DNA of 20,517 bases. It comes from Baffinella frigidus (taxonomy: Eukaryota; Cryptophyceae; Cryptomonadales; Baffinellaceae). Below the pieces are notes generated by a model. That model was not told the DNA's origin and did no database searches. It saw nothing but the letters and a program-made list of their open reading frames with translations. A program made the position numbers and the translations under genes. Shown here one piece after another: positions 1-20,517 of this stretch. Each line of letters starts with the position of its first letter. Position 1 is the stretch's first letter. Where the stretch lies: contig MU646307.1 in NCBI GenBank assembly GCA_026770585.1, positions 1,924,285 to 1,944,801 of the forward strand, in the 5' to 3' direction.

Positions 1-54
<54 letters not shown>
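1..54. repeat. (GA)n microsatellite in intron
   Basis: About 27 GA dinucleotides ending at the donor of exon 57-152; in the transcript it is a (CU)n tract right after the GU. Confidence 0.97.
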
Positions 55-56
<2 letters not shown>

Positions 57-59
<3 letters not shown>

Positions 60-152
60 GGCTGCGAGGGTGATGGTGCCGGTGGGGAGGCGCATGTCGA
101 GGGAGGGAGAAGAGGACCACTCGAACAACATCTCCTTGTAGTCGCCCTCCAC
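57..152 (-). CDS. Exon: REJ region, last in window
   Basis: Acceptor AACACAG|GTGG, donor GCCCAG|GTCTCT; 32 codons, phase 0 to 0. VEGDYKEMLFEWSSSPSLDM then RLPTGTITLAAQ is the REJ strand that normally precedes a V.DalGa turn, so the gene continues beyond position 1. Confidence 0.85.
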
Positions 153-3100
153 CTGTGTTGGGTTAGAGTTTGGGGGTTAGGGTTTAGGGTTTAGGGTTTA
201 GGGTTTAGGTTTTAGGTTTTAGGGTTTAGGTTTTAGGGTTTAGGTTTTAGGGTTTAGGGTTTAGGTTTTAGGGTTTAGGTTAGTCGAACGCGATCGCCTT
301 TTAGCCACCTTGCACCTGGTAGCCCACGGGGGTCGTTTTGGGTTTCAGGTTTGGGGTTTGGGGTTTGGGGGATAGGGTGTGCTGCACCCTGCACCCTCGC
401 CGGGAGGGAGGCAGACCAGGTACTGCTTTATGCACCCTACACCCTCGCGGCGAGGTTGCAAGGCGTTTCTGCAGAACAAGTTCCAGTGTCCGCATGTGTC
501 GGGAGCTCGAAGAACCTACAGGGAGGCTGACCTGGTAGCCAAAGCGGTAGAGGAGGCCGCCGTCGGAATCTGCCCAGTTGTCGCACGAGACGCGCAGCAG
601 ATCGAAGACTGGCTCGCCGGTCGTGGCGCAGGCGCCCGTGGCATCGCCGTCGACGAAACACGCGCGGCAGGGCGCGCCCGCGGGCGGCGAGTTGACCACG
701 ACCACCTGCTCCGCGCTGCCCGTCGCCGTCTCGAGCTCGCCGGCCACGGTGCACTCCGACGTGATCAGGTAGCGCGCGCCCGGGACGAGGGCGTTGCTGC
801 CTTCGCCAAGGTAGAGCAGGGCGTGTGATGATGGTGAGGAGAACGCCGGGGCAGTGAGCGCCACGCTGGGATCGATGGACCAGGATTGCGCGCCGGGGAG
901 GGAGCAAGAGGCCGTGAGTGAGAAGACGGAGTTGGCGTTGATCTTGATCGATCCGTCCGTCTGCCGGAAGAACTCCCCCGACACCGCGAGCTCCACGTTC
1001 GGGATAGCCTGCAAATTTAGGGTTTAGGGTTAGGGTACCTACCAGGTTTGGGGTTTGGAGTTTGGGGTTCAGGGTTCAGGGTTCAGGGTTCAGGGTTCAG
1101 GGTTCAGGGTTCAGGGTTCAGGGTGTGGGGTTTAGGTTACCTACCACACCTGGCGGGGTTAGGGGTGAGGGCACCTGGGCCACAAGCGTGAGCGCGAGCG
1201 TGTACGCCGCGGGCGACTTGCCCCCCTTCGAGACTGTCACCGTGAACTGATACGGCGCGTCGGTTGTCGCCGGCATTGTCCCGGCCGGCACGTACAAGGT
1301 GGACGCGGTCCCGAGGGACAGTAAAGCGCCGGAGGAGTCGCGGCACGCCTGCGAGGACGTCCCGTCGGAGAGCGAGCATGCCCAGAAGAAGGCGAGGCCG
1401 TGGGCACCGAGGGACAGTAAAGCGCCGGAGTCGATGTCGGGGTCGCGCGACACGCCCGCGTCGAGTGCCAGGGCGGAGGAGGTTGACTGCTTTGGGGTTA
1501 GGGGTTAGGGTTTCGGGTGCCTGGTGTCTGGTGGAATGTTGAGAGTTGAGGGTTGAAGGTATGGGGTTTGGGGCGTGGGGTTGCCTGCTTGCGCGTGACA
1601 CCCCCCGTGATGCGCGCGATCAGCGGGAGCGATCCGACTGAGATGACCATCTGCGACGAAGACTGCTTCGAGACGTCGTCGCTCATGCTCACCTGGTGTA
1701 GGGTTTGGGGTTTGGGGTTTATGGTTTATGGCTTATGGCTTATGGTTTATGGTTTATATTTTATGGTTTGTAGTTTACGGTGTAGGGTTTAGGGTTGTTA
1801 ACCGTGAGCGCGACGACGTACGTCGCGTCGGCACGGAGCGTGCCTGGTTTAGAGTTTGGGGTTTAGGGTTTAGGGTTTAGGATGTAGGGTGTAGGGTGTA
1901 GGGTTTAGGGTGTAGGGTGTAGGGTGTAGGGTTAAGGGTGTAGGGTGTAGGGTTTAGGGTTTAGGGGAGCGTGCCAGGCGGTATGCGCAGCTGCGCGATG
2001 GTCCCGAGGAATCGCGCGGGGATCGTCGTTGGGCCAGAGACCTGGGGCGGGGTTCATGGTTGTTCAAGCGCCAGGAATCGGGGAAAGACCCTGGAGAGGG
2101 GGAATCAGGTGGGGCGGAAACGCCGGAAGCGGAAAGGCCGTTAGGGGACGGAGACCTGCGTCCACTGGAACACCATCTCGGACTTGGCCGCGGTGCACTG
2201 CGAGAAGACCGTCACCGCGCGCACCTGGTTGAGGGGTGAGGTTTTGGGGTTCAGGGTTCACGCTGTAGGCTTCCCGGGTTAAGGTTGAGGGTTCAAGGTT
2301 TGGGGTTTAGGGTTTAGGGTTTGAGGTTTGGGGTTTGGGGTTTAGGGTTTAGGGTTTAGGGTTTAGGGTTTAGGGTTTAGGGTTTAGGGTTTAGACGGAC
2401 CTCAACCATCTGGTCGCGCGTGACAGCCACGGAGGCAGGCTGGAAGTAGAGCTGGGGCGCGGGCGCCGACGCCTTGAACACCTTTTGGGGTGTGTAGGGT
2501 TTAGGGTTGAGGTTTTGTTGTTTAGCGTTCAGCGTTTGGGGTTACACCTTGAACACCACCTCCTTCGATACGGACCCGAACATGTCTGTGGCGGTCACGG
2601 AAATCTCGTACGTGAAGTCCAGGTCCTGGTTTAGGGTTGACGGTTCAGGGTTGAGGATTTAGGGTGTAGGGTGTAGGGTGTAGGGTGTAGGGTGTAGGGT
2701 GTAGGGTGTAGGGTGTAGGGTGTAGGGTGTAGGGTGCAGGGTGTAGGGTGTAAGGTTTAGGGTTGACCGTCATCTCCGGTGTGCCCGCCGCGAGGTTCAC
2801 CTCGCCGGTGGTAATCGCCCGCAGCGCCGAATCGACCCCAAGATGGTTGCGGCAGCGCCACGCGAAGTCAGGGGAGCGCGGCGAGTCCGAGGCCGCCTTG
2901 AGGTTGAGGAGCGCGCACTGGTCGATGGTCGTGGGGCCGGAGACCGAGAGGGAAGGCTCCTTGCGGAAGGCCGGGGCGCTCACGGTGGTCGCGGCGCTTC
3001 GTGAGTGGAGGGAGACGAGGTTAGCAGAGCGCACGCGGGTGGCGTGGAGGGTGAGCGTGTCGCCGGGGAGGAGCGTGGCGCCGACGCCCAGCATCACGTT

Positions 3101-6100
3101 GAGCGTCGTATCGGTCGCCCACACGCACTTGGCCGCCGTGATGCCAGACATCTTGGCGAAGGTGTCATCGTCGAGGAAGACGCGGGCGCAGGACTGGTCA
3201 AACGCGGTCATGCCCGCGCGGTCCGTCGCGTGGTCAAACGTCACGGCCAGCTGGAGGCCCAACGGGTCCATCGCGATGGCGCTGACGGTGGGCGCGGTCC
3301 AGAAGGAGAAGCGCGAGGAGGCGGCGCGCGAGGCGTCGGTGCGCGAGACCACGCCCATGTCGACTATCGCCTCGCCCGCGGCGTAGGAGCACGCGGCGCA
3401 GGTGTAGGGAGGCGGGGTGATGGAGAGGACGGTGCGGGCCGCGGTTGACGAAACGATGGCGACGGCCGTGGCGGCCTCGCTCCTAGGGTTTAGGGTTTAG
3501 GGTTTGGGGTTTGGGGTTTTGAGGTTTGGGGTTCAGGGTTTAGGGTTTAGGGTTTAGGGTTTAGGGTTTAGGGTTTAGGGTTTAGGGTTTAGAGTTTAGG
3601 GTTTAGGGTTCAGGGTTTAGTTAGGGTTTAGGGTTTAGAGCCTAGAGTTTAGGGTTGAGAGCGTAGGGTTTAGGTACCCGAAAGTCACGGTGAACTGGTC
3701 GGATGCCGCGCGGGTCGTAGAGAGGAGGAAGTTGGTGATGGTGACCTGGTTTAAGGTTTCACGTTTAGGGTCTTCAGGTTTGTCAAGGAGGTGCTCTTGT
3801 TTGGCAGCCCCCGATGGTAGCTTGATAGGGTGTGCGGATTGGGGTAGAGAGGTTAGGGCAACCTGGAAGGGCGCGCCGGAAGAGGAGGAGGCGCGGCAGG
3901 GGGAGCAGGAGAGGGTGATGCTGTCGTCGAAGAAGGTGAAAGCAAACGCGGCTGTGGACGGCACGGCCGCGTTGGCAGGCAAAACCGACATCTCGGCGAG
4001 CACTTCGCCCGCCGCGGCCGAAGGCACCGAGAACTCGAAGGCCGAGACGTCTTCTCCCTGGAACACCACGCGCGCGAGCGACGCGACGGCCGTGGCGCCC
4101 AGCGAGGCGGATATGCTCGCGTGCCCAACGCTCGCGTCCAGCGCGCCGGACAGCGCGTTGTACGCCACCAAAGGCGCGTGGCGCATCACGAGGGTCAGCG
4201 TGCCACCGCCGCGCAGGGGTGCCGCGTTCTCTTTCGGCTTTTCGCCATTGTGACAGCGGGCGTTGACAAGGCACGTGCGCCCCGCGTTGCAGGCCGCGCA
4301 CCACTGCACCGCCAGGACCTCAGGCAGCGGGATGTAGTAGGTGAAGGCGACGCGCGCGATCTTGGGCGCGCGGAGGTAGAGCTGTCCGGCGACCCCCCCG
4401 CGGGGGACGGGCTCGGCTCCGGTGTATTGGATCGTGAGCGGTACGATTCCGGGGGCGAGGTCCACGGCGGGAGGCACCCTCACCTGCAGAGAGAGCGATT
4501 TTAGAGAGCGAGAGCAAGAGAGCGAGAGCGAGCGAGAGGGAAAGAGGGAGAGAGGGGAGAGAGAGCAAGCGAGCGAGTGAGAGAGAGAGAGGGCCGTAAC
4601 CTGCAGCCACACACCGCCCTTGAAGTTGATGTAGGCAAGCACGGGTGACGCCACAGAGCCAAAGGTCACGGCCACGTCCGCGCCAGAGGCGATCGCGGGG
4701 AAGTTGGCGATGCGCAGGGCGGTGGATGCCCCGTCCTCGGCGGCTGACTGGCCCGTGACCGTCGCGTCGCCTTGCTCCAGGCTTGAGACGACAGGCGTGA
4801 TGAAATACTCGAATAGGAAGTCGGTGAGCAGCTCGGGGGAGGCCTTCACCAGCTTGACGCGGCACGTGAACACGCCCGCGCTGGAAAACGCAGGCATCGA
4901 CAGCGAGAGCGTCATTTCAGCGATAAGCCCGGCCTGCGTGTTTTCCGTGACGGCGAGCACGTTGGCGCTGCTGAGGGCTGTCTCGGTGGTGCCGTCGTCG
5001 ATCGTTACTAGCACCTCGCTCTGCGCGGGGATGGGATCGATGCCGTAGGCCTTGACAGTGACGAGTGTGCCGCCCGCCACCGACCCGTCGACCGGCGACA
5101 CGACTCTTGCAGGCGCGCGGTACGAGAAAGAGAACACGCCCGTGTCCACCCGCAACAACTCGCCCTCCGCAGCCGCCCACACCGTCAAGCTTTCTACCCC
5201 AATAACAGCCTTCGCGGGCGCATCCACCTGGATCAAGAGCATACCGTTGGCGGTCTCAATCATGCGTTCGCCCGGCGGAGCCACGTCAACAGAAGCTCCG
5301 TCGCGGCTAAAGCGCACGCGCGTCTGGCGCCGCACCGCTTCCGCCTTGCACGTGAGCGTGTCCTTGCACCCCGGGCGCGGGAAGTTTTTGAGGAAGATGG
5401 ACACGGTCCGCGAGCTTGCTGCCGAGCTGGTGGCGTTCGAGACTACGTACTGCCACTTGGGCGAGAAGCCGAGCACCGAGGGATCTCCTGTGGCGACGTA
5501 CTTGAAAGACCAGGAAAACATCTCGCCAGCCGCAGTGTGCGCCGAGAACGTGGCGGCCCCGCCGCCGTTGTCGGTCTCGTTGAGCGCCGGGGCGCGGAAC
5601 TTGACCTCAAAGAGCGAGCAGTAGGTGTGGAGGCACTTGCTTTTTTTGTTCGCCACCGAGAGGATCGCAACTGGGTACGTGTGTCCCTGGGCCGTCACGA
5701 GCTGTGCGGCGGTGAGGTCGGCGAGCTGGAAGCTGGGCGGCACATACTGGGCCGTCACAGCGATGGAATATGAGAGATCAGTTGACCCGTCGCTCGGGTA
5801 CGCGCCGACCACCGAGGGGGCGGGAGAAGCATCGACGGTGACAGTGTGGAAGCCGGCGGTGGCGATGCCGCGCGACACAGAGTAGGCGCGGATTTCGAGC
5901 GTGCCGGCCGGGAGCGTGGTCGTGGCCTCGACGGTGACCTTGGTGCGGTCGCGGTCCGACGACGTGATCTTCGAGACTGGGAGGTACTCCCCAGCGTCTA
6001 CTTTGACCATGATGTCGGTGAGGACGAAGGGGCGCGTGAGGCGCGGGACGTTGCCGAGGGAGAGCGCGAGCGAGACCGTGTCCGATACTGACGTCTCGTA

Positions 6101-15100: not shown

Positions 15101-18100
15101 AAGAGGGTTAGTCAAGCATCCTTGTAAAGGACTACCCTTTCGCGAGGTCCGATCTGAGAAAAGAATACATTAAGAGGATTAAGAGGAGACTAGGGAAAAC
15201 CTAAATATAACATTTAAGAAGATGAGGAAGCCTCGAGATGTTGGGAATCAGCAAATACCCATGGTCCTAATGCCCCCACACCTGGAGATGTAGGGTTTAG
15301 GGTTTAGGGTTTAGGGTTTAGGGTTTAGAGTTTAGAGTTTAGAGTTCACGTTTTGGTTGTTAGGGTTTAGGGTTTAGAGTGTAGAGTCTAGGTTTTGGGG
15401 TTTGTGGTTTAGGGTTTAGAGTCTAGGGTTTAGGGTTTAAGCCCGCACCTGGAGACTCACGAGTGGCGCGGAGGCATCTCAGGTCACCGACTATTCTCAA
15501 GGTAGGCCATCCGTAGGGACACAGGGTTGTTCCTACGGACATACTAACCAACTCTCGGTCATAATCCGCCCCAAAATCACTTCGTAGCCCGCTGTGTGGC
15601 TCTGCCGCACTTGGGTTGGCCGACTATTCTCAAGTTGGCATGCTGGGTGTGCGATACACATCCGTCATCTTTGGAGTGGGAACGAGCCCGGGCTCGCCTA
15701 ATTTTACAGCCCAAACAGACAGTGTCAGAGGTAAAAATCGCGGGCCTGCACCTGAATGCCCACGAGTGGCGCAGAGCCATCTCCGAGACCCGTGTCGGAA
15801 GGCACCATGAATGATACGTTCAGCGCCTGCGTTTGGGGTTTGGGGTTTAGGGTTTAGGGTTTAGGGTGTAGGGTTTAGGGTGTAGGGTGTAGGATGTAGG
15901 GATTGCGAACAACGAGAGAGCCCCCCCCCGCACGACGGCAACTCACCCGGGGCTATAACTGACCCGCGCAGGGTTTGTTTACAGACCACGGACCGGTCAA
16001 CCGTTGGTGGATTGGGGTAGGGTCTCGCGCCTCCAAAGTTCACGTTTAGCCACCTTTCTCACGCACCAACTCCTCAACCCCCATACCTGCAGCCCCCCCG
16101 CCGTCGTGACCTCTTGCGCGCTGAGCAACCGCACCGGGCCGGGCAAGTCCATCGCAAGGAGCGTTTGTGCCTCGGAGACGGGTCCGCTGAAGTAGCGGTT
16201 CGCGGCCGTGACCTGCAAACGAGGCGAGTTGACTGAACCGGGAAGTTTTGTACCAAGATGGTGACTGATCCGGCTTGGGGTTGTACCGGAAGATGCGAGG
16301 ATTAGTCAACAGTCGTGGGGTTCTGCGTGAGGGGGAAACAACGCGCGCGCGTTCACCAGAGCTGGCCTCGGGAAATGCATTCCCGGATAATTCAAACGTG
16401 GATTTTGAACAAGCATGTCCAGATTGTCAATGCATTGACCCTAACAAGGCAAACATCGGGAGGCGCACCGCAGTCAAGACTTGACGTTACTGTCAAGTGA
16501 TTAGTGTTTAGTGTTTAGTGTTTCGTGTTTAGTGTTTAGTGATCAGTGTTGAGACTTTAGCGTTGACGTCACTGTGTAGTCTTTAGTGTTTCGGTTTCAT
16601 GTTTACGGCTCAGTGTGCACAGTTTACGGTTCAGTGTTTCGGTTTCGTGTTGAGGGTGTAGGGAGCACCGTAGCAGTGAGCGCGGCGCCCTTGCGGCACC
16701 ACAGCAGCACATCGCCCCCCACCCGCAGCGCAAACGCGTCCCCGTGCCACTCAGCATCCAGCACAACCGCATCCACCCCCGCGCCCACCATCCACGACTG
16801 AGCCGTCGCATTCCCCTTCCCAGCGTCCCCAGCGGCTCCACTCGACGCGCCCGCGCACTCGAGCGAGACTTGATACCCGAGGAGCAAGATGCGGCGGGGG
16901 TCCGCGGCGCCCCGGGCGTCCCCAAAGTCGACCACGCGGCGCCACTCCACTCTGAAGCGCAAGACCGTTGCCTGCGCGATGGTCACGTCCGTCGGCGCGT
17001 CCGGTTTCCTGACGAAGGTGATGAGCCTCGCGGCGACAGCGGGGGGAGAGGCGCCTGCGGGGTTGTGCGCCTGGACGCGCGCGGCGAGCGTGACGCCGGG
17101 CGGGAGGATGTGGCCCAGGTTCGCGAACGTCACCTTGGTCACGCACGCGCGGGCGGAGAGCGCGGCGTCCGTGGAGCAGACGGTCTGTTCGGCGCCGACC
17201 TCCTGAGAGATGTTCCAGCCGTTGGACGCGAGGAGCGTGGCTGAGAAGCGTTGGATGTGCGCCACCTCCCCGGAGCCCTCCGCCAGCGCCTCGACCGCCC
17301 ACGACACCTCCACCCTCTCCGACAGAGACCCTCCAGCTGGACCGGATGCAAAGAGATCCGCGAGGGGGGTCTGCAGCTGCCGGATCGCCACCGCCAGCAC
17401 CTGCGCCGGGCGTTTGTACACTTCGAGGGAAAATATCATCGCCTCGGAGCGGTTCTCCCCCCCCCGCGCGACCCCGCCATCGTCCAAAAGCAGCACCTCC
17501 CACGTGGTGTTCCCCGAGCCCTGCCGCCCGAGCGCCGGCGCGAGCGTGGCCCAGAGCGTGCCGTTGCCGTCCACACGCGGCGCTCCTTCGGGAGCAAAGA
17601 GCATCACGCCCGCGCCGCCGACCTGCCGGATAAAGAACGAGAGGCGCTGCCACGCCTCGTCCAACGGCCCCGCGGAAATCCCCACCGCGAGCGCGAAGCT
17701 GACTGCCCCCGCGTCCTTGGTCGTGCGGAGGCGGGCCTGCGGGAGCGCGAAAGTGAAGGACGGCGCGTCGTTAACGGGCACCACGCGGATCGTCGCCACC
17801 TTGCGCCGCGTGACCGCCGGCGGCCCCCCAAGGTAGGAGGGGTCGGTGAGCGCAACCTCCCAGGTGGTCTCGCCGTTCGCATTCTGGAGGAGCGCGAGCG
17901 GTGCTGCGCCGTACGCCACCACGCCTGAGGCTGCCCCCGGGTGCTGCACCGCCTGGATTGGGAGTTGGGGGGTTAGGTGGTTAGGGGGCTAGGGGGCTGG
18001 GCCTGGCCGTACGCCACCACGCCTCAAGGGGAAGCTTCACCCGGGTGTTGCGCCGCCTGGATTGGGAGGTTGGGGAATTAGGGGGATAGGGGGATAGGGG

Positions 18101-20517
18101 GTTAGGGGCTGGGGTTAGCGGAACGCCGAAATGCCGGACGCCGCTTCCCCCGGGTGTTGCACCGCCTGGGTTGGGGGGTGGGGATTAGGGGGTTACTAAG
18201 GCATGTGAGGCGCTGGCGCTGGTTGTTTGGCACTAAATTACCAACCTCTCTCTTAGGGTGTTAGGGGTGAGGGTTTGGGGTGTAGGGGTTAGGCGTGAGC
18301 GCTACACCTGCAGCGGCGTCCGAAGATGGCTGAAGATGGAGGCGTTGCTACCGACGAGGCTGACGATCCAGGTGAAGTTGCCCGTGCCGAGAGCCGCAAC
18401 CTCGAAGAGCGTGTGCCTCACCTGAACAGCGCCCGCTCGCTTAGCGGAGGGATACGTTTTGCACCAGGGAAGGGCTGTGCATGTAAATGTGTGGACTGAA
18501 CCGGATTAAACATTGTGTTCCTGATACAACACGTGTCCTTTGGTTAACCGATCGGACACGATGAACTGCAACTCTGCATGCAGGAGCGGCGGTTGGGGGC
18601 GTTAAGGGTTGCAATCCCGTCGGGCTCGTAGGCCAAGACGCGGGGAGAGAAGGCGAGGGTCGAGGGTTTGAAGGGCTTCAGGTTGAGGGTGGAGGGTCGA
18701 GGGTGGAGGGTCAAGGGCGTACGGTTGCGGGTTACGGATTGCACTTTGCGGTTGGCGGGGTGCGGGAAGCGCACCGGAGCGGCGACCTCAAGCATTTTCA
18801 AGTCAAACGTTGGGGTTTGAGGTTTAGGGTTTGGGGTTGAGAGCTGAGGGTGTAGGGTGTAGGGTGTAGGGTGTAGGGTCAAGGTTTGAGGGATCAGGGC
18901 ACCGGAGCGGCGTCCTCCAGCATTTCCAAGTCGAACACTCTCCACTCGATCTCCCGCACCTCGCAGCCCAGCCCTGCCAGGGGTTAGGGTTAGGGTTAGG
19001 GTGTAGGGTGCAGGGTGCAGGGTGTAGTGTGTAGGGTTTAGGGTGCAGGCGCCTTTCCGGAATCGAGCCAACGCCCGCACGTCTCAACACCCCAGGTTCT
19101 ACCGCTAGAGCTCACCTTCCCAGGCTTTCCTGGCCAGAAGGACTTCTTATTCTCAGAGCCTTATATAAAGAGGTCAACTACTACCTAATACCGCTTTCGC
19201 CGAGGGGCGGGCTAGCAGGACTCACCTTCTGCGGCCGCGGTCTGGTACCCCAACTTGTTCACGCAGTCCGCGCCACACGGTTAGTACCTGAGGAAACACG
19301 ACTTTGTACCAGCAAGGGGATATACAATAGATGTATGGTGGATAGGGCGACATGTGTTGGGTACCTTGTGCGTCCGCCACAGCCGCGGGACAGTAGCCGA
19401 GCTTGCACGTGCACAGCGATCTACTACGGCCTAACACCGCTTTCGCCGAGGGGCTAGCAGGACGCACCTTCTGCGGCCGCGGCACGGTAGCCGCGCTTGC
19501 ACACGCAGTCTGCCACGGTGGCGCTCCGAGGCGGGCTCGTCGCGTTCTGGGGGCACGCGAGGGGGGGGGAGGCCGCGCCCGGGCAGAAGCTCCCCTCCAC
19601 GCACACGCTGTTTAGGGTTGAGGGGTTAGGGGTTAGGGGTCAGGGGTTGGGGTTTAGGGTTTAGGGTTTAGGGTTTAGGGTGCAGGGTGTAGGGTTTATG
19701 GTGCAGGGGGTGGGGGATGGGGGGTCGGGGGTGGTGAGGGGGTTGTGGGTGAGGGGTGAGGTGAGAGGTGAGTGTTGCCTGTCGATCGATACGGGGGCTT
19801 CCAGGTACGACGCCCGCCCTGTTCAGGGATGGTCGCGGCCCTATCACTCTGGTTCATAAAGCTCCGTTACATGGGTTACCCGCGAATGAGAACACGCACC
19901 GCCCCAGGGTCCTACAGTAGGCTATTCCAAGGATCATAGGACCGCTCTAGTCTCGGTGTGTGTTGGCAACCGCAAGTCACCCCTGTAGATCCCTGTAGAC
20001 ACCCCTGTTACACTCGTGCGGGGCGCGGGGGGGGGAGGTGCCTGCAGGTCGCGGCGCCGACTTCGCTGCTCGCCTCGCCCGGGGGACATGGCTCGCACGG
20101 CCCGCCCCCGGGGCCAGCGAAGCCGGCGGCGCAGAGGCAGACGTCGTGGTGTGGGACGGCGTCGCACCCGGGGATTGGCGCGGGGGTTGTGGTGGTGGCA
20201 AAAACTGGCGTCGTGGAAGTGGTCAGGCACGCCTCTGCACCCGCACCCGAGAAGCTCCCCGCGTGGCATGGCGTGCACGCCTCTCTCCCCAACGCGTCCT
20301 TGTACGTCCCCGCGTCGCACGCCACACACACCAAAACACTGCTCACCGACCAGCTCGCCTCGAAGCCGCTGAAGCTATCGAAACCATCTGACGTGAAGCG
20401 CAACCGCAGGTGCTGCCCCTCCCCCGCGGTGTATGTCCGCACATAAGGTAAGTCGTAGCCCGACAGCGTCGCGAGAACCGTCACCCCCGACGAGAACGAC
20501 GCGTCCCCGGACTCCTC
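57..20517 (-). CDS. Giant multi-exon gene: CUB / Cys-rich / cadherin-like / FN3 / IPT-TIG / REJ surface protein (partial at both ends)
   Basis: Model read on the minus strand as join of exons (plus coordinates, high to low): 20042-20517, 19468-19607, 18903-18973, 18736-18786, 18308-18421, 16669-17952, 16087-16212, 15752-15826, 14246-14460, 14047-14107, 13577-13779, 13163-13225, 12745-13030, 12421-12529, 12171-12306, 11744-12050, 9577-11643, 9301-9439, 8298-9190, 8118-8163, 7972-8009, 6909-7799, 6239-6842, 4601-6138, 3863-4483, 3678-3745, 2768-3482, 2548-2625, 2401-2481, 2156-2224, 1975-2041, 1803-1843, 1600-1692, 1175-1486, 532-1008, 57-152. Phases agree at every junction and no stop occurs in 4,217 codons. 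No start or stop codon is in the window. Domain calls rest on motif recognition: CxxC repeats, VNDAP, FN3 end motifs, repeated [LIV]xNFP and GGTLV of IPT/TIG, and REJ-like blocks. An extracellular or surface role is inferred. The 3 exons between 19467 and 18422 are the least certain part. Alternatively this could be two adjacent genes split in that region. Confidence 0.8.
160..280. repeat. TTTAGGG / TTTTAGG array
   Basis: Degenerate telomere-like 7- and 8-mers, on the plus strand always G-rich. Confidence 0.9.
280..315 (-). pseudogene. Optional or decayed REJ micro-exon with in-frame TAA
   Basis: After GGCTACCAG| (an 11-bp repeat of the donor region at 530-540) it reads VQGG, TAA, then KAIAFD. 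The residues would suit a REJ strand (GYQVQGG..AIAFDY), but there is a stop at 301-303 and no GT donor at the end. Skipping it joins FGYQ to VEGDYKEMLFEW in frame, so the main model omits it. Confidence 0.45.
532..1008 (-). CDS. Exon: REJ repeat
   Basis: 159 codons, phase 0 to 0; acceptor TTTGCAG|GCTA, donor TACCAG|GTCAGC. Starts AIPNVELAVSGEFFRQTDGS, then FSLTASCSLPGAQSWSIDP, YLITSECTVAGELETATGSA, APCRACFVDGDATGACATTG, and CDNWADSDGGLLYRFGYQ (the CxxWxDxDxpLxYxF motif of REJ). Confidence 0.92.
1017..1137. repeat. TTCAGGG heptamer array
   Basis: After a short TTTAGGG start, about eight almost perfect copies of ttcaggg run from ~1066 to 1122. Confidence 0.93.
1175..1486 (-). CDS. Exon: REJ repeat
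   Basis: 104 codons, phase 0 to 0; acceptor AAAGCAG|TCAA, donor GCCCAG|GTGCCC. Contains ALALDAGVSRDPDIDSGALL, FFWACSLSDGTSSQAC, STLYVPAGTMPAT and YQFTVTVSKGGKSPAAYTLA: the DaS.SxDPD, FxWxC, LxxxaGtl and YxFtvtvskg elements of REJ, in order. Confidence 0.92.
1600..1692 (-). CDS. Exon: REJ region
   Basis: Acceptor ACACCAG|GTGA; donor GGGGGT|GTCACG chosen because it is the one giving phase 0. VSMSDDVSKQSSSQMVISVG then LPLIARITGG is a REJ strand pattern with the P-L-x-A-x-I-x-G-G turn. Confidence 0.8.
1700..1798. repeat. TTTATGG heptamer array
   Basis: TTTGGGG units followed by tttatgg/cttatgg copies, then TTTAGGG close to the donor. Confidence 0.88.
1803..1843 (-). CDS. Micro-exon of REJ (41 bp)
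   Basis: Acceptor AAACCAG|GCAC, donor CTCACG|GTTAAC; phase 1 to 0. TLRADATYVVALT matches the REJ motif (pxGtLxaxxxYxvxlt). Confidence 0.82.
1853..1965. repeat. GTGTAGG heptamer array
   Basis: Mixed tttaggg and gtgtagg units in 7-base register, lying between the 10-bp direct repeats at 1835-1844 and 1966-1975. Confidence 0.9.
1975..2041 (-). CDS. Exon: REJ strand, GC donor
   Basis: Acceptor GCCCCAG|GTCT; donor read as GC (CCGCCTG|GCACGC) because no GT is available in frame and the flanking 10-bp direct repeat GGCACGCTCC fixes the joint. Encodes VSGPTTIPARFLGTIAQLRI then PP, continuing as GTLRADATYVVALT in the next exon. Confidence 0.78.
2156..2224 (-). CDS. Exon: REJ core (Cys/Trp)
   Basis: Acceptor CAACCAG|GTGC, donor ACGCAG|GTCTCC; phase 0 to 0. 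VRAVTVFSQCTAAKSEMVFQ then WTQ gives the C...FxW pair of a REJ repeat. Confidence 0.84.
2280..2394. repeat. TTTAGGG array (near-perfect)
   Basis: Around eight consecutive perfect tttaggg units at about 2338-2393, the cleanest plant-type telomere run in the window together with 3538-3592. Confidence 0.95.
2401..2481 (-). CDS. Exon: REJ region
   Basis: Acceptor CCAAAAG|GTGTTC, donor GTTGAG|GTCCGT; phase 0 to 0. Encodes VFKASAPAPQLYFQPASVAV and TRDQMVE. A later acceptor TTCAAG|GCG would drop VFK and undo the duplication VVFK-VFK at the junction. Confidence 0.78.
2548..2625 (-). CDS. Exon: REJ strand
   Basis: Acceptor AAACCAG|GACC, donor TTCAAG|GTGTAA; 26 codons, phase 0 to 0. DLDFTYEISVTATDMFGSVS is a typical REJ ending strand. 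The donor sits in an 11-bp direct repeat shared with the next acceptor, so the exact joint is ambiguous by VFK. Confidence 0.83.
2630..2764. repeat. GTGTAGG heptamer array
   Basis: More than ten consecutive gtgtagg units (about 2662-2750) with one gtgcagg variant; homogenised away from TTTAGGG. Confidence 0.95.
2768..3482 (-). CDS. Exon: last beta-sandwich and start of REJ-type region
   Basis: Phase 2 to 0; acceptor CCCTAG|GAGC, donor ATGACG|GTCAAC. Starts SEAATAVAIVSSTAARTVLS and has CAACSYAAGEAIV. Then WTAPTVSAIAMDPLGLQLAV with FDHATDRAGMTAFDQSCARV, a pattern seen at the start of REJ regions in protist proteins. It ends LSVSGPTTIDQCALLNLKAA and DFAWRCRN, a REJ repeat core (SGP...CxxxxLxA...WxC). 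Confidence 0.92.
3484..3675. repeat. TTTAGGG array
   Basis: Near-perfect tttaggg runs in the middle with tttgggg and ttcaggg variants at the edges; fills the whole intron 3483-3677. Confidence 0.95.
3678..3745 (-). CDS. Exon: IPT/TIG strand (68 bp)
   Basis: Phase 0 to 2; donor TTTCGG|GTACCT. Encodes VTITNFLLSTTRAASDQFTV then TFG, the [LIV]xNF ... VTFG signature of the TIG family. Confidence 0.85.
3746..3862 (-). other. Second 117-bp stop-free intron
   Basis: Bounded by TTCCAG|GTTGCC and AAACCAG|GTCACC. Also a multiple of three with no stop in frame. Removing it restores PFQVTITNFLLSTTRAASDQ, a proper TIG strand; retention would add 39 residues there. Only its acceptor end is telomere-like. 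Confidence 0.78.
3863..4483 (-). CDS. Exon: IPT/TIG repeats with CxxC loops
   Basis: 207 codons, phase 0 to 0; acceptor TCTGCAG|GTGA, donor TTCCAG|GTTGCC. Contains LPEVLAVQWCAACNAGRTC, a Cys-rich TIG entry, then RGGGTLTLVMRHAPLVAYNA, and ends DDSITLSCSPCRASSSSGAP followed by FQ. Confidence 0.92.
4484..4600 (-). other. 117-bp stop-free intron of CT-rich sequence
   Basis: Bounded by CTGCAG|GTTACG and CTCTGCAG|GTGAGG. In the transcript it is almost pure (CT)n/CTCG-type pyrimidine. Length is a multiple of three with no stop in frame; retention would add 39 Ser/Leu-rich residues between WLQ and VRVPPAV, in the middle of a TIG domain, so splicing is the better reading. Confidence 0.8.
4601..6138 (-). 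CDS. Long exon: about five IPT/TIG-like repeats
   Basis: 513 residues, phase 1 to 0; acceptor GAACCAG|GCGC, donor GCTGCAG|GTTACG. TIG starts: SVVGAYPSDGSTDLSYSIAV; SVLGFSPKWQYVVSNATSSA with FLKNFPRPGCKD; ARVVSPVDGSVAGGTLVTVK; TPVVSSLEQGDATVTGQSAA with LRIANFPAIASGADVAVTFG. Two Cys pairs (CLHTYC and CKDTLTC) probably stabilise loops. Confidence 0.94.
6139..6238. repeat. TTCAGGG then TTTAGGG array
   Basis: About seven ttcaggg units from 6143 to 6192, then tttaggg/tttagag to the donor; fills a 100-bp intron. Confidence 0.94.
6239..6842 (-). CDS. Exon: IPT/TIG repeats
   Basis: Phase 0 to 1; acceptor AAACCAG|GTGC, donor CTCGG|GTAACC. Contains PTILRVSPSEGLVLGGTLVT with LQVAGLPAFSPADVKVV, the most canonical TIG start in the window, preceded by a Cys-bearing loop (ACDLQALCAARRR ... 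ACDPGYC). Confidence 0.92.
6909..7799 (-). CDS. Exon: about three IPT/TIG-like repeats
   Basis: 297 codons, phase 0 to 0; acceptor AACCCAG|GTGA, donor CTGCAG|GTGAAC. TIG starts: PAVSAFTPTSGLNDVVCEVK with SYPGTVLVTFGGEEV; LLAPPSGMAKQQPALPTITL with KFPLVYSSLNVTL; PKVVSYGPETVPTVASAGGR with ILANFPQGLSPADVV. Confidence 0.93.
7800..7971. repeat. TTTATGG heptamer array
   Basis: About eleven consecutive perfect tttatgg units at about 7875-7951, flanked by TTAGGG-like units. Confidence 0.95.
7972..8009 (-). CDS. Micro-exon (38 bp)
   Basis: Acceptor AAACCAG|GGAG, donor GAGACG|GTGTGC; phase 1 to 0. Encodes GSLMLQSSSPEET. Supported by phase fit on both sides rather than by domain content. Confidence 0.72.
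8010..8117. repeat. TTTAGGG array
   Basis: About eight near-perfect tttaggg copies between micro-exons 8118-8163 and 7972-8009. Confidence 0.93.
8118..8163 (-). CDS. Micro-exon of IPT/TIG (46 bp)
   Basis: Acceptor GAACAG|CTAT, donor AGACAG|GTCTCG; phase 0 to 1. LSSGDDAEVMFGEKT supplies the VxF strand directly after SIANFPQ of the previous exon. Confidence 0.8.
8170..8297. repeat. Degenerate TTTAGGG array
   Basis: tttaggg, ttaaggg, attaggg and gtgtagg units up to the donor at 8297. Confidence 0.9.
8298..9190 (-). CDS. Exon: three IPT/TIG-like repeats with a Cys cluster
   Basis: 298 residues, phase 1 to 0; acceptor ACCCGCAG|GGGC, donor CCGCAG|GTTGCA. TIG starts: AAITSVSPSKASIRASGTAR with VSNLPGT, PQVMSVAGPDGAGQTSAAVP, and KSPLSGPEIGGAFILVSIAN followed by FPQ. 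Contains a Cys-rich loop (CVAACCETAACATACPG) that may form disulfides. Confidence 0.92.
9191..9300. repeat. Degenerate TTTAGGG / TTCAGGA array
   Basis: Heptamer register kept with ttcagga, tctaggg and tttagga variants; fills the intron. Confidence 0.88.
9301..9439 (-). CDS. Exon: IPT/TIG strands
   Basis: Acceptor CTTGCAG|GTCA, donor GCCTG|GTAAAC; phase 0 to 1. Encodes VKNLPADLAPAQAILDFAGS, then CLSADQSRGVLTFEIPTEP, continuing the TIG begun in the previous exon. Confidence 0.88.
9440..9576. other. Intron without heptamers, holding a dispersed repeat copy
   Basis: 137-bp intron with 12-bp direct repeats at its two ends (TCTTGACCTGCA) and a copy of a ~50-bp repeat also found at 18201-18254. 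It has no telomere-like array, unlike most introns here. Confidence 0.75.
9522..9573. repeat. Dispersed ~50-bp repeat, copy 1
   Basis: The first 40 bases match 18201-18240 at 36 positions (gcatgtg, ggcgctg, ttgtttggca and taaatta blocks in the same order), then both end in ctctctt. Confidence 0.8.
9577..11643 (-). CDS. Longest exon: about six IPT/TIG-like repeats
   Basis: 689 codons without interruption, phase 0 to 0; acceptor GACCCAG|GTTT, donor GTGCAG|GTCAAG. Successive TIG-like starts include LLAGAPTEAPAQGGTLLLLG, VRLTIVLSNFPLVYNKASLA, PQASSFSPARVYADGGHTVT with LLTDFPDVQ, VKQLKPSVGECRAGSPVTVS, VATLVGAFPNQGFA and VRVTGFFPLSEYVSGRT. Each is about 90-110 residues with hydrophobic alternation typical of beta sandwiches and a conserved VTF/FTY strand. 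Extracellular location is inferred from domain type. Confidence 0.94.
11644..11743. repeat. TTTCGGG heptamer array
   Basis: Six tttcggg copies at about 11653-11690, a variant dominant only in this intron. Confidence 0.92.
11744..12050 (-). CDS. Exon: IPT/TIG-like domain
   Basis: Acceptor GGTGCAG|GTCG, donor GACTGG|GTCTCT; phase 2 to 0. Encodes SGGVTIAVFIENVQSAP and VTLAGAACSVSQATFSPGNN, a divergent TIG followed by a stretch ending FTIDGDARDW. Confidence 0.86.
12051..12170. repeat. TTTGGGG heptamer array
   Basis: About seven tttgggg copies at 12075-12125, then tttaggg variants. Confidence 0.92.
12171..12306 (-). CDS. Exon: IPT/TIG end and start of next
   Basis: Acceptor GAAACCAG|GCGT, donor CCCGGG|GTCAAC; phase 1 to 2. 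Encodes VANYTLAYSSGEVLLDLSG then FTYKGTVVTSVTPPSGMTNP, a TIG boundary. Confidence 0.85.
12307..12420. repeat. TTTGGGG / TTTAGGG array
   Basis: Fills the intron between exons 12421-12529 and 12171-12306. Confidence 0.88.
12421..12529 (-). CDS. Exon: IPT/TIG middle strands
   Basis: Acceptor CAACCCAG|GTCG, donor GGCGG|GTCAAC; phase 0 to 1. Encodes VDVYCAGQAVKTRDAILKAK and later FVVRFAAPQCAAG. Confidence 0.85.
12530..12744. repeat. Highly degenerate heptamer array
   Basis: tttaggg-related units with tgtttag, gtttagt and gatttag variants; the most diverged array of this size in the window. Confidence 0.82.
12745..13030 (-). CDS. Exon: first clear IPT/TIG domain
   Basis: Acceptor AAACCAG|GTCG, donor GCTGCAG|GTCCTA; phase 2 to 0. 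After a Cys-containing segment (LPSGCASGCAATLLVYP) it carries PAVTSVFPLEGSEQGGTLVS, the canonical IPT/TIG start (PxVxSVxPxxGxxxGGTxV), then LTVEDYPGDATSPSRF. Confidence 0.88.
13031..13162. repeat. TTCAGGG / TTTAGGG array
   Basis: Fills a 132-bp intron; includes 8-mer ttttaggg variants. Confidence 0.9.
13163..13225 (-). CDS. Exon: FN3 F-G strands
   Basis: Acceptor AAACCCAG|GTTC, donor GTGCG|GTCAAC; phase 2 to 2. It reads FTTETKSVVTTVSAANAAGV, completing the fourth FN3-like domain. Confidence 0.85.
13226..13576. other. Intron with heptamers and a decayed exon copy
   Basis: 13264-13302 is a decayed copy of the next exon's 5' end. 13316-13560 is mostly TTCAGGG/TTTAGGG degenerate array, interrupted by an A/T-rich piece (13495-13520). 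Nothing else recognised. Confidence 0.7.
13264..13302 (-). pseudogene. Decayed copy of exon 13163-13225
   Basis: After an acceptor-like GAGTGCAG| it reads FSTES and later bases resemble TCTGCCGCCAACGC of the real exon (FTTET...SAANAA), but it is shortened and ends in TAA. Confidence 0.55.
13577..13779 (-). CDS. Exon: fourth FN3-like domain, N-terminal part
   Basis: Acceptor AAACCAG|GTTC, donor GTTCAG|GTCGCT; phase 0 to 2. Encodes VLTDASTVRVARPYGTGSG, a threefold ccggaaccaca-type repeat translating as SGTT/SGTTS/SGTA, then FHVWQNGARNVPSAILLSVF. Confidence 0.85.
13780..14046. repeat. Degenerate array with a longer internal unit
   Basis: 13780-13875 is heptameric; 13876-14005 instead repeats ggtctg/gtggggcttgatgg-like units of roughly 35-45 bases; 14006-14046 returns to tttaggg. 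Confidence 0.75.
14047..14107 (-). CDS. Exon: end of FN3 domain
   Basis: Acceptor GAAACCAG|CAAC, donor CTCCCG|GTCTCG; phase 2 to 0. With the preceding exon it reads VRARVSNGVGVAEFAAP, a textbook FN3 F-G ending, followed by VLADYFTLP. Confidence 0.83.
14108..14245. repeat. TTTGGGG / TTCAGGG array
   Basis: Fills the 138-bp intron between FN3 exons 14246-14460 and 14047-14107. Confidence 0.88.
14246..14460 (-). CDS. Exon: FN3 strands C'-F with a Thr/Ser/Gln-rich insert
   Basis: Acceptor AACCTGCAG|CTCG, donor GCGTCAG|GTTTGT; phase 0 to 2. It starts LAACRFAVP, matching VSLECAG at the same place in the preceding FN3, and ends RYQKVQITSLATGNVYFVRA. Between them is a low-complexity stretch (HPTTGINNFHQQLSSTPSIT) encoded by an imperfect gttgttgatgaaa tandem repeat at about 14355-14400. 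The acceptor lies in a perfect 11-bp inverted repeat (14441-14451 / 14462-14472). A shorter alternative starts at ACGCAG|CAGTTG and would also be phase 0. Confidence 0.72.
14441..14472. repeat. Perfect 11-bp inverted repeat at a splice acceptor
   Basis: gcgaacctgca and tgcaggttcgc separated by 10 bases. In the transcript the hairpin would hold the AG of the acceptor and the first codons of exon 14246-14460. Confidence 0.75.
14819..15052. mobile_element. MITE-like element with 27-bp terminal inverted repeats
   Basis: Left end 14819-14845 and right end 15026-15052 are inverted repeats matching at 26 of 27 bases (attgtagaaatggg, C/T, tccgcgcggatt). Each end contains the palindrome TCCGCGCGGA. 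The 234-bp element is much more A+T-rich than its surroundings and has no coding capacity. Internally, AAAATCGATTT occurs twice (14881-14891, 14900-14910). No clear target-site duplication was visible. Size, inverted ends and lack of ORF fit a non-autonomous DNA transposon; the superfamily is unknown. Confidence 0.8.
15291..15440. repeat. TTTAGGG / TTTAGAG heptamer array
   Basis: Starts with five near-perfect TTTAGGG units and then drifts through ttTAGAG and tctaGGG variants. Confidence 0.85.
15449..15478 (-). pseudogene. Decayed copy of the FN3 exon 3' end
   Basis: Reads DASAPLVSLQ followed by GTGCGG, compared with DGSAPLVGIQ followed by GTGCAG in exon 15752-15826. A stop lies two codons upstream and there is no acceptor, so it is not a usable exon. 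Confidence 0.6.
15752..15826 (-). CDS. Exon: FN3 strands B-C
   Basis: Acceptor AAACGCAG|GCG, donor ATTCAG|GTGCAG; 25 codons, phase 0 to 0. It encodes ALNVSFMVPSDTGLGDGSAP then LVGIQ, which fits exactly between GGLQ of the preceding exon and the LAACRFAV strand of the next. A decayed copy of its 3' end lies at 15449-15478. Confidence 0.85.
15832..15902. repeat. TTTAGGG / GTGTAGG array
   Basis: Acceptor-side part of intron 15827-16086; the remainder (15903-16086) is unique sequence with a run of nine or ten C. Confidence 0.9.
16087..16212 (-). CDS. Exon: end of FN3 domain and start of the next
   Basis: Acceptor TTTGCAG|GTCACG, donor CTGCAG|GTATGG; 42 codons, phase 0 to 0. Joined to the previous exon it reads ALTATVTAANRYFSGPVSEA, the G-strand end of an FN3 domain, then PGPVRLLSAQEVTTAGGLQ, the A/B strands of the next FN3. 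Confidence 0.88.
16228..16295. repeat. Imperfect tandem pair
   Basis: Two ~35-bp copies share tgactgaaccgg/tgactgatccgg and ttgtacc followed by agatg. A related piece (gtggactgaaccgg) is at 18491. Confidence 0.45.
16500..16668. repeat. TTTAGTG-type heptamer array in intron
   Basis: Repeated tttagtg/tttcgtg/tttcggt units every 7 bases in the first half, degrading towards the donor at 16668. Confidence 0.8.
16669..17952 (-). CDS. Long exon: cadherin-like (VNDAP) repeats followed by fibronectin-III-like domains
   Basis: 428 codons, phase 0 to 0; acceptor AATCCAG|GCGG, donor GCTACG|GTGCTC. Residues 25-65 of the exon carry NGETTWEVALTDPSYLGG and VVPVNDAPSF; residues 150-180 carry GSGNTTWEVLLLDDGG and RGGENRSEAMIFSLEV, the signature of cadherin-like/VCBS-type adhesin repeats. 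From about residue 185 FN3-like folds begin (RVEVSWAVEALAEGSGEV ... LAARVQAHNPAGASPP; then KPDAPTDVTIAQ ... RFRVEWRRVVDFGDARGA ... GYQVSLECAG). The second FN3 is completed by the next exon. Probably an extracellular adhesion segment (inferred). The last ~15 codons are GC-rich with a moderate donor. Confidence 0.92.
18007..18056 (-). pseudogene. Decayed exon-start copy 2
   Basis: After CCAATCCAG| it reads AAQHPGEASP then TGA. Past the stop it still resembles the real exon (cgtacgccaccacgcct is shared). Spacing to the functional acceptor at 17953 is about 104 bp. Confidence 0.65.
18118..18165 (-). pseudogene. Decayed exon-start copy 3
   Basis: After an acceptor-like CCAACCCAG| it reads AVQHPGEAASGISAFR and then TAA, compared with AVQHPGAASGVVAYG in the real exon start (17952). 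The acceptor motif itself is duplicated with it. Confidence 0.65.
18201..18254. repeat. Dispersed ~50-bp repeat, copy 2
   Basis: Partner of 9522-9573, same orientation, in a different intron of the same gene. Confidence 0.8.
18308..18421 (-). CDS. Exon: cadherin-like/VCBS-type repeat fragment
   Basis: Acceptor TGTTCAG|GTGAGG, donor GCTGCAG|GTGTAG; 38 codons, phase 0 to 0. It encodes LFEVAALGTGNFTWIVSLVG, which aligns by eye with NGETTWEVAL and SGNTTWEVLLLDDGG in the next exon, so it is one more copy of the same repeat. Confidence 0.8.
18422..18735. other. Unresolved stretch, intron in the model
   Basis: Contains a minus-strand open piece (about 18556-18640) reading VLAYEPDGIATLNAP then NRRSCMQ that looks coding-like, but I found no donor/acceptor pair in the right phase. 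18660-18720 is a GGGTCGAGGGTGGA-type repeat. 18491-18521 resembles a small repeat seen at 16228-16295. The attgtgttcctgatacaacac segment has short inverted arms. No other feature recognised. Confidence 0.4.
18736..18786 (-). CDS. Probable short exon (VAAPVRFPHPANRK)
   Basis: Read from acceptor TTGAG|GTCGCC to donor TCC|GTAACC, phase 0 to 0. The start lies inside the second copy of a ~38-bp duplication whose first copy is in exon 18903-18973. An alternative donor AAA|GTGCAA is also phase 0. The joint is plausible but weak; this is one of the least certain exons. Confidence 0.35.
18771..18936. repeat. ~38-bp direct repeat flanking a heptamer intron
   Basis: 18771-18808 and 18899-18936 match except for about four bases (gcaccggagcggcg ... 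agcattt ... caagtc). The sequence between them (18810-18898) is a GTGTAGG-type array. Confidence 0.85.
18903..18973 (-). CDS. Exon: linker after Cys-rich region
   Basis: Acceptor CCTGGCAG|GGC and donor GCTCCG|GTGCCC; phase 1 to 0, matching the phase left by exon 19468-19607. It encodes LGCEVREIEWRVFDLEMLED followed by AAP. No domain recognised; acidic, with regular hydrophobic spacing. Its 3' half is repeated at 18771-18809. Confidence 0.55.
18974..19060. repeat. TTAGGG / GTGTAGG array
   Basis: Short run containing three tandem TTAGGG hexamers at about 18984-19001, then gtgtagg/gtgcagg units. Confidence 0.85.
19226..19280 (-). pseudogene. Second partial copy of the Cys-rich exon
   Basis: Reads ADCVNKLGYQTAAAEG before a near-perfect donor GAAG|GTGAGT. 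One of the conserved Cys codons has become Asn, and the nearest acceptor (CCTCAG|GTACTAA) gives an in-frame stop in the homologous frame. It lies inside a block (19178-19280) that repeats 19421-19518, including the flanking intron bases. Confidence 0.5.
19365..19420 (-). pseudogene. Partial copy of the Cys-rich exon (alternative or decayed exon)
   Basis: The minus strand reads SLCTCKLGYCPAAVADAQG with a good donor ACAAG|GTACCC, clearly related to ADCVCKRGYRAAAAEG of exon 19468-19607. The possible acceptor (GTAGTAG|A) gives a phase that does not follow from the upstream exon. It may be a mutually exclusive alternative exon or a remnant; I left it out of the main model. Confidence 0.5.
19468..19607 (-). 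CDS. Exon: Cys-rich GCC2/GCC3-like repeat
   Basis: Acceptor CTAAACAG|CG and donor GAAG|GTGCGT; phase 2 to 1. It encodes CVEGSFCPG, then ACPQNATSPP, then ADCVCKRGYRAAAAEG, the classic CxxGxxCPG...CP...S...DCxCxxGY layout of ephrin-receptor-like repeats. Its 3' half has two relatives further downstream (19365-19420 and 19226-19280). Confidence 0.82.
19608..20041. other. Intron: G-rich heptamers then unique sequence
   Basis: 19611-19700 is a TTAGGGG/TTTAGGG array; 19701-19780 is G-rich; 19781-19975 is unique sequence with a ggtccta/taggacc inverted pair (about 19909-19944); 19976-20010 has three short cccctgta-type copies; 20026-20037 is a G run. No gene seen. Confidence 0.7.
20042..20517 (-). 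CDS. Exon: end of CUB-like domain plus Cys-rich ephrin-receptor-like repeats
   Basis: Open at the window edge. The first ~50 residues end in LRLRFTSDGFDSFSGFEASW, the usual C-terminal strand pattern of a CUB domain. Next come Cys-rich units (CVACDAGTYKD, CTPCHAGSFSGAG, CEPCPPGEASSEVGAATC) typical of GCC2/GCC3 or ephrin-receptor-like repeats, interrupted by a Thr/Pro linker (TTSTTPVFATTTTPAP). The donor is read as GC (CTGCAG|GCACCT) because this is phase 2 and joins the next exon so that the Cys spacing continues as C-S-V-C. A GT donor slightly downstream (ACGA|GTGTAA) would break that register. Confidence 0.8.

Follow-up and report, generated by a model that had tools for sequence, protein, structure and literature searches.

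Telomere-type heptamer arrays as a probable source of new introns in a gene family of the cryptophyte Baffinella frigidus

The origin of new introns is an old open question, and a stretch of the genome of the cryptophyte Baffinella frigidus raises it in a specific form: how do introns made largely of a degenerate telomere-type repeat come to interrupt a protein-coding gene? The stretch analyzed here, referred to as the window, comprises the final 20,517 bp of a 1.94-Mb contig in a genome of 382 Mb, and is occupied by a large gene on the minus strand, most introns of which contain arrays of the heptamer CCCTAAA. Read on the opposite strand as TTTAGGG, this unit equals the plant/alga-type telomere repeat. 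To our knowledge, the sources of introns are otherwise mostly transposon-like introners or single break-repair events. In the present case, comparison of four copies of the gene reveals more than 12 apparent gains with empty sites in one gene family, and suggests that heptamer arrays were inserted into exons, where they are predicted to be spliced out.

Results

Within the window, 34 arrays of the CCCTAAA type make up 3,723 bp (18.1%), and they are located in 31 of the 44 introns of a dynamic-programming gene model for the minus strand; the remaining 13 introns hold none or only a weak one. Many arrays span the distance from a few bases inside one splice site to a few bases inside the other. 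This bears out a first-pass annotation in which most introns were described as consisting largely of TTTAGGG-type 7-mers, and the four examples named there (3483-3677, 6139-6238, 8010-8117 and 12307-12420) coincide exactly with modelled introns. Compared with mononucleotide shuffles (60 per intron), the match to CCCTAAA has z values from 11.4 to 77.0 in all 31 array introns, and 33 of 34 modelled exons of at least 60 nt score 7 or less; the exception, scoring 34 at 18573-18786, is a modelling error. The orientation is uniform, with TTTAGGG on the plus strand and CCCTAAA on the coding strand in 34 of 34 arrays, and none reversed. Exact CCCTAAA accounts for 122 of the 490 heptamers (25%). The common variants, i.e., CCCCAAA, CCCTGAA, CCCTACA, CCATAAA, CCCGAAA and CCCTCAA, also prevail among the arrays of the paralogues and of the other stretches sampled, and local runs of a single variant, e.g., TTCAGGG, TGTAGGG or TTTATGG, show later slippage.

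The modelled protein has Pfam matches to Ephrin_rec_like (7.4e-6) near its start, TIG (1.5e-12) in the middle and REJ (2.9e-32) near its end. The closest named proteins are from Baffinella frigidus itself, one being 96% identical over 419 amino acids to a paralogue and 86-95% identical further on. Two independent lines support the view that the arrays act as introns and are predicted to be spliced out: the REJ profile is matched across the junctions, and the paralogues are uninterrupted and in frame. On the spliced segment, REJ scores 112.3 bits for residues 319-670, in order across five junctions, four of which are arrays, compared with 23.8 bits on single exons alone, contributed by the sole exon of the region with a match. 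As judged by the REJ profile across junctions and by the frames of the paralogues, the GT-AG or GC-AG ends restore the conserved frame, as they do in spliceosomal introns.

Four gene copies, all from the one genome, were compared, namely the window (W) and the copies C1298 (A), C1181 (B) and C647 (C). The three paralogues are 83, 78 and 76% identical over one exon; nucleotide identity is 0.885 between W and C1298 and 0.918 between C1181 and C647, and ranges from 0.80 to 0.815 across the pairs. All four copies are under purifying selection, with ratios of nonsynonymous to synonymous substitution (dN/dS) of 0.29-0.41, and two aligned codons in C1181 read as stops. The comparison covered 27 array positions between residues 1227 and 4400, leaving aside regions where the copies read N, align poorly or cannot be assigned clearly. 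At 24 of the 27 positions at least one copy is empty, i.e., has an uninterrupted exon, and the paralogue exons are in frame there. Thirteen positions are copy-specific (six in W only, three in C1298, two in C1181 and two in C647), eight are shared by W and C1298, one by C1181 and C647, two by W, C1298 and C647, and three by all four copies. In these counts, the printed sequence and the array map overrule a script that had called introns 21 (C1298), 22 (C647), 24 (C1298 and C647) and 29 (C1298) empty. Two of the copy-specific positions, in C647 at 1301 and in C1181 at 4169, lack a clean empty site. The 13 copy-specific arrays are most simply regarded as gains, with insertion rather than loss favored by parsimony on four copies, and the two positions shared by W, C1298 and C647 point to a likely loss of introns in C1181 as well.

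Direct repeats across the junctions were evaluated for 31 introns with an empty homologue; of these, 29 hold arrays or a weak array, and introns 25 and 37 hold none. The positions of nine sites were assigned manually from the printed sequence, and a 6-nt shift was applied to the donor of intron 36. The exact repeat has a mean length of 4.97 bp compared with 3.49 bp for cross-paired ends, and none of 20,000 permutations gave a mean as high. Repeats of at least 10 bp flank 5 of the 31 introns compared with 0.2% in the null, and represent four independent events (three arrays and the non-array intron 25), the repeats of C1181 and C647 at residue 2850 being one event. In the corresponding empty sites, each of these long repeats (10-13 bp at W38, W25, C3685 and the C1181/C647 site at 2850) is clearly present only once. 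Among the arrays of the window, intron 38 is the cleanest example: GGCACGCTCC flanks the array on both sides and occurs once at the empty site of every paralogue, C647 differing at one base. A site occupied only in C647 (AGGTGCTCGC) and the site shared by C1181 and C647 (GTGCGACCCC; 13 bp in C1181) are equally clean. A looser flank test gave a p value of 0.0004, but took in at least one repeat that proved ancestral. Repair of staggered breaks is supported for some sites, and we infer it for the rest.

Intron 25, which contains no array and is present only in W, carries a 51-bp repeat (9522-9572) that is 84% identical to a copy in intron 9 (18201-18251). Since this repeat recurs in intron 9, other inserted DNA may be able to become an intron too, and intron 25 may represent a second, non-array class of inserted intron. 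In the Baffinella protein P0002, residues 730-745 read VKNLPAEVKNLPA where the window has one VKNLPA adjoining intron 25, which may reflect duplication of the same target within the protein.

The orientation of the arrays is matched by their content of splice signals. In 90 arrays of four stretches (10,042 bp), the sense orientation contains 1.13 AG and 0.43 GT per 100 bp, compared with 10.2 AG and 14.4 GT in the inverted one. A branch-point-like word, CTRAH, occurs in the 3' part of 26 of the 31 introns but in only 54 of 1,000 exonic stretches of equal length, because the heptamer unit itself contains it. All arrays are in sense in W (34/34), C1298 (30/30) and C1181 (12/12), and 14 of 15 are in C647, the exception lying beyond the aligned 3' end. 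AG is found within 4 nt of the array end for 20 of 33 arrays in the window (control GA, 9/33) and 39 of 55 in the paralogues (control GA, 10/55), and GT precedes the array in 21 of 33 (control TG, 10) and 26 of 55 (control TG, 12), respectively. A sense array thus appears quiet inside and easy to remove, and an inverted one would offer splice dinucleotides in almost every unit, which suggests that orientation is filtered.

The heptamer repeat is genome-wide and not specific to introns, because unselected stretches are equally dense in it; some of its copies become introns. Exact matches to three consecutive TTTAGGG units number 53,120 (overlapping) in the genome, compared with 27 for the reversed control. 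Fifteen 10-kb stretches were taken at fixed round coordinates, of which nine are N or almost only N and six were used; one of these, L049, was treated apart since it holds a gene. The other five (26.8 kb readable) have an array density of 17.5%, compared with 18.0% in the window, in both orientations (11 and 26). The proposal that arrays mark introns only was rejected on account of this equal density and the weak association with splice sites. According to the first-pass annotation, an equal density in intergenic DNA would indicate general genome expansion instead of a route of intron gain; the density is indeed equal in the five stretches, and the empty sites still show intron making. The five stretches cannot be called intergenic because the codon score, which found one segment in the six stretches (in L038, low-complexity), missed the gene in L049. 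Within each stretch the orientation (TTTAGGG:CCCTAAA) is nearly uniform, with 8:1 in L036, 3:0 in L038, 0:3 in L040, 1:5 in L043, 12:1 in L044 and 1:9 in L049. This uniformity could stem from transcription, from the direction of replication or from local duplication, and the stretches may hold unrecognized genes.

The gene in L049 encodes a Deg protease, and is unrelated to that of the window; nine of its ten arrays are in sense, and the exception is located between duplicated exon pieces. This gene (L049:1430-9121) is full of duplicated exon fragments beside arrays, e.g., 3404-3464, which recurs at 3669-3728 on the other side of an array; the pattern looks as though arrays had been inserted together with long flanking duplications or decoy exons. 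On viral contigs, three TTTAGGG units were found at 22 loci; the runs there do not exceed about 110 bp, and none resembles the dense, degenerate arrays described here. Among the matches listed (about 100 of 7,001) for CCCTAAACCCTAAACC followed by a base other than C, those with a third base other than T comprise 10 AGG and no AGA or AGC; this is suggestive of splice-like ends, yet most of the others are array variants, and the count was not used as a test.

Concerning a telomeric origin, runs of 20 exact TTTAGGG units were found at three loci only (C32, C350 and C365 of G000), all on the minus strand and at least 88 kb from the contig start, and none of the three is placed or oriented like a chromosome end; the contig starts C1-C5 read N throughout, and the pattern search may not see contig ends. 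Ten TTAGGG units occur at four loci. In copy-specific arrays, exact heptamers number 22 of 81 in W, 5 of 35 in C1298, 14 of 32 in C1181 and 1 of 13 in C647, with mismatches per base of 0.156, 0.245, 0.112 and 0.240, respectively. These values exceed the neutral ceilings (0.136 for W and C1298, 0.078 for C1181 and C647) in all copies, clearly in C1298 and C647 and slightly in W and C1181, and the copy-specific arrays are as degenerate as the shared ones. Intron 28 is nearly pure, with 9 of 13 heptamers exact. At the 3' junction, the array ends at the second C in 18 of 33 cases in the window, 24 of 55 in the paralogues and 15 of 47 elsewhere. The possibility that the new arrays are all fresh telomerase product was rejected, copy-specific arrays being degenerate already. 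Unless the arrays evolve faster than synonymous sites, this degeneracy beyond the neutral ceiling favors, in our view, the capture of array DNA that already existed rather than new synthesis by telomerase. Hence, in the earlier proposal that telomeric DNA was captured repeatedly as introns, the gain of introns is supported, on the presence/absence pattern of four copies, and the telomere or telomerase origin is not, the perfect runs being placed unlike chromosome ends and the young arrays degenerate.

Discussion

The reading that we consider rather probable is that arrays were inserted into exons, probably as filler in the repair of staggered breaks, and that they are predicted to be spliced out. 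Abundant and already degenerate array DNA would be captured when a staggered break in an exon is repaired, and the repeat would enter exons in both orientations. Only CCCTAAA-sense copies, which are quiet inside and carry CTAAA motifs resembling branch points, would be cut out cleanly and survive, since about 1 AG and 0.4 GT per 100 bp together with CTAAA would permit clean removal. Part of the donor and/or acceptor would come from the duplicated target, which often resembles AGGT. As to the further proposal that a plain tandem repeat, with no transposon involved, is the main intron-making material of this genome, and that one of its orientations amounts to ready-made introns, with a branch-point-like motif in each perfect unit and hardly any AG or GT inside, which the spliceosome could use whenever repair places a piece of the repeat in an exon, we regard the chances as even.

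Several points qualify this reading or weigh against it. Arrays served as intron examples in the training of the model, which makes the match between arrays and introns in the model partly circular, and in the 5' third (above ~14,250) the model performs poorly. At many sites the direct repeat measures 1-4 bp only, e.g., 2 bp at W26, 1 bp at A2732 and 2 bp exact at B2712; such lengths are expected from the splice consensus alone, and break repair with duplication is therefore not carried for most sites. A first flank test, with small offsets, found repeats of at least 7 bp at 2 of 31 array introns (null, 3.3%) and a weakly raised mean (p 0.036). At intron 35, an 11-bp repeat had to be rejected as a target duplication, as the repeated VFK is present already in the intron-less C647, and the 7-bp AAGGTGT remains. 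The contrast between orientations is smaller for acceptor-like YYNYAG words (32 versus 56). In the unselected stretches, AG within 4 nt after the array (13/37; control GA, 10/37) and GT before it (14/37; control TG, 8/37) indicate a weak association with splice sites, and the local uniformity of orientation is not explained by known genes. Array ends of the Deg gene lie near AG in 3 of 10 cases, compared with 5 of 10 for the control GA. Finally, a comparison of 13 arrays with about 114 kb of readable DNA found no near-identical source array; five of the 13 had matches elsewhere that surpassed those of all 15 heptamer shuffles, at 78-90% identity.

The alternatives differ in what they leave unexplained. 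Addition of TTTAGGG by telomerase to breaks inside exons, with the added arrays becoming introns, would account directly for the telomere-type unit, the biased phase at the 3' junction and the nearly pure intron 28, and passages of PMC2246262 describe mammalian cases in which interstitial telomeric repeats were inserted at breaks, in part accompanied by target duplications. It is nonetheless unlikely, since the copy-specific arrays are mostly degenerate and above the neutral ceilings in every group, none of the three loci with perfect 20-unit runs is telomere-like in placement, and the phase bias is equally expected from the need for YAG. Reverse splicing, i.e., reinsertion of existing array introns into transcripts that are then copied back into the genome as cDNA, would yield sense-only orientation, precise insertion and an unchanged coding sequence, as in most sites; however, it makes no direct repeats of 10-13 bp such as those at W38, C3685 and the C1181/C647 site at 2850, and leaves unexplained why array density is equal in unselected stretches with little splice-site association, so that we regard it as quite unlikely. 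A conventional introner, i.e., a non-autonomous transposon family with an array core, is improbable: presence/absence, target duplications and many copies would fit, and the non-array intron 25, with its 12-bp direct repeat and the 51-bp repeat common to intron 9, looks like such an insertion, but the intron ends share no sequence beyond heptamers and no terminal inverted repeats on inspection of the printed ends, and the direct repeats range in length between 1 and 13 bp, with no single fixed length. The introner-like family put forward as an option in the first-pass annotation thus holds in effect, as recurrent gain, and fails in that no family sequence is shared and the duplications have no fixed length.

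It is also conceivable that the introns are old, that heptamers expanded inside them, and that the other gene copies lost introns precisely. Single-variant runs do show slippage, and the three positions found in all four copies and the two found in three copies make some loss in C1181 likely. We nevertheless judge this highly improbable, given that each of the 13 copy-specific positions would require at least two precise losses, that every copy has private positions (two of them with no clean empty site), and that the flanking duplications mark insertion. Least credible, and in our view barely worth entertaining, is that the arrays are not introns at all but reflect a pseudogene or an artefact of assembly or modelling. 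The poor 5' third of the model, the two stop codons in aligned C1181 and the prediction of arrays as introns from DNA alone would speak for it, and it is opposed by the dN/dS values of 0.29-0.41, the REJ match across junctions and the 4,467 amino acids without a stop.

Capture of array DNA during break repair has partial counterparts in known systems. Introners bring about rapid recurrent intron gain, some families with target duplications and with splice site(s) recruited from the target, and GC donors occur among them, as passages of Gozashti et al. 2022 (PMC9860276) report. The present case resembles them in recurrent gain (at 24 of 27 array positions, one or more of the four copies are empty), but the arrays share only the heptamer consensus, 25% of units being exact, with no alignable family sequence, and the direct repeats of 1-13 bp are not constant in length. 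Terminal inverted repeats were not seen by inspection at the printed ends of the 44 introns; passages of the same paper indicate that these are not required of all introner families. Its survey of thousands of genomes, as there described, filtered out low-complexity introner families, whose similarity could stem from, e.g., microsatellite expansion, and because of this filter a class of the heptamer type would not appear in it.

In Daphnia, new introns are flanked by direct repeats of 4-12 bp that are attributed to staggered breaks and end joining, according to passages of PMC4202315 and the review PMC3443670. The introns gained here agree with this in having flanking direct repeats as a group, with a single copy in the clear empty sites; they differ in consisting mostly of one tandem repeat in one orientation, while the Daphnia passages in PMC4202315 name no single shared filler. 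For interstitial telomeric sequences, passages of Nergadze et al. 2007 (PMC2246262) give target duplications at 6 of 130 rodent and 4 of 25 primate loci and favor insertion in the form of exact telomeric hexamers. Both cases involve short arrays of telomere type inserted at breaks, but the arrays described here are degenerate, located in exons and oriented, and are telomere-like by their unit only. In the chlorarachniophyte Amorphochlora, passages of PMC12730881 report lineage-specific introns, nine at AG/GN sites and about half with [AT]n, in which the authors see no introner; this is the nearest parallel we have met, with AT dinucleotides in part of the introns there and a heptamer filling the intron here. 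Tandem duplication of AGGT can provide both splice sites from its two copies, as a passage of the review PMC3443670 sets out. In contrast to that mechanism, the bulk of the introns here is an unrelated array, yet duplicated exon pieces lie beside arrays in L049.

In the open-licence literature, as judged by titles and the starts of abstracts among the matches listed, no introns made of telomere-type heptamers were found. The association of arrays with introns at this locus is a strong and, in our view, real observation; the probable intron gain seems to work like introner gain and like break repair of the Daphnia kind, with the telomere part unproven. The orientation and splice-dinucleotide content of the repeat would provide a simple rule for which arrays survive. 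If this were true genome-wide, simple repeats would join the sources of mass intron gain, and surveys filtered for low complexity would need to be rerun.

Annotated features of the window

Table 1 Gene, array introns and flanking direct repeats, with their state in the four gene copies. Array positions refer to the window.
Feature	Position	Strand	Array	State in copies and remarks
Large gene, incomplete at both ends	1..20517	-		45 modelled exons, 4,467 amino acids without stop
Intron 44	153..289	-	160-279	Model and array score; copy state not usable
Intron 43	298..394	-	335-378 (short)	Copy state not usable
Intron 41	1009..1174	-	1016-1136	Window-only; empty in C1298, C1181, C647
Intron 40	1487..1584	-	1491-1582	GC-AG in model; window-only; flanking repeat AAGCAG, 6 bp
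Intron 39	1693..1802	-	1695-1796	Common to window and C1298; empty in C1181, C647
Intron 38	1844..1974	-	1846-1966	GC-AG; window-only; 10-bp direct repeat
Intron 38 direct repeat GGCACGCTCC, 10 bp	1835..1844 and 1966..1975	+		
Intron 36	2225..2400	-	2227-2394	In C1298, C647; empty in C1181; donor corrected by 6 nt relative to model
Intron 35	2482..2547	-	2484-2543	Window-only; flanking repeat AAGGTGT, 7 bp
Intron 34	2626..2767	-	2628-2764	In all four copies
Intron 33	3483..3677	-	3484-3674	Common to C1298 only
Intron 32	3746..3862	-	Weak, outside the 34	Clear array in C1298; empty in C1181, C647
Intron 31	6139..6238	-	6141-6237	Common to C1298 only
Intron 30	6843..6908	-	6845-6905	Common to C1298 only
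Intron 29	7800..7971	-	7802-7965	Common to C1298 only
Intron 28	8010..8117	-	8012-8105	Window-only
Intron 27	8164..8297	-	8167-8292	Common to C1298 only
Intron 26	9191..9300	-	9195-9299	Window-only
Intron 25	9440..9576	-	Not an array	Window-only; 51-bp dispersed repeat; flanked by 12-bp direct repeat
Intron 25 direct repeat TCTTGACCTGCA, 12 bp	9433..9444 and 9570..9581	+		
Intron 24	11644..11743	-	11652-11737	In C1298 and C647 (printed sequence, array map); empty in C1181
Intron 23	12051..12170	-	12058-12167	Common to C1298 only
Intron 22	12307..12420	-	12309-12417	In all four copies (C647 by printed sequence)
Intron 21	12530..12744	-	12532-12742	Taken as in all four (C1298 position set by hand)
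Intron 20	13031..13162	-	13033-13159	In C1298; empty in C1181, C647
Intron 19	13226..13576	-	Three arrays	In C1298; empty in C1181, C647
Intron 18	13780..14046	-	13782-14040	In C1298; empty in C1181; C647 unclear
Intron 17	14108..14245	-	14110-14225	In C1298; empty in C1181; C647 not readable
Intron 14	14785..15789	-	15291-15439	Long; inverted-repeat element; model weak here
Intron 13	15827..16086	-	15831-15904	
Intron 12	16213..16668	-	16487-16645 (degenerate)	
Intron 9	18166..18307	-	18253-18293	Copy of 51-bp dispersed repeat
Intron 7	18787..18902	-	18810-18899	Weak model; further array 18656-18740 in mis-called exon
Intron 6	18974..19191	-	18993-19049	
Intron 3	19608..19778	-	19610-19729	GC donor in model

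Imperfect inverted repeats within intron 14 (14819-14866 and 15009-15052; 48 bp, 81%) bound a 234-bp element that looks like a small transposon. A (GA)n run opens the window at 2-55, and a second GA-rich stretch is located at 4503-4591; they probably represent another type of repeat inside an intron or exon. Local tandem duplications are present in or near exons at 17936-18192 (units of ~104 bp), 19174-19513 (a 98-bp pair, 81%) and 1311-1430 (an identical 24-bp pair).

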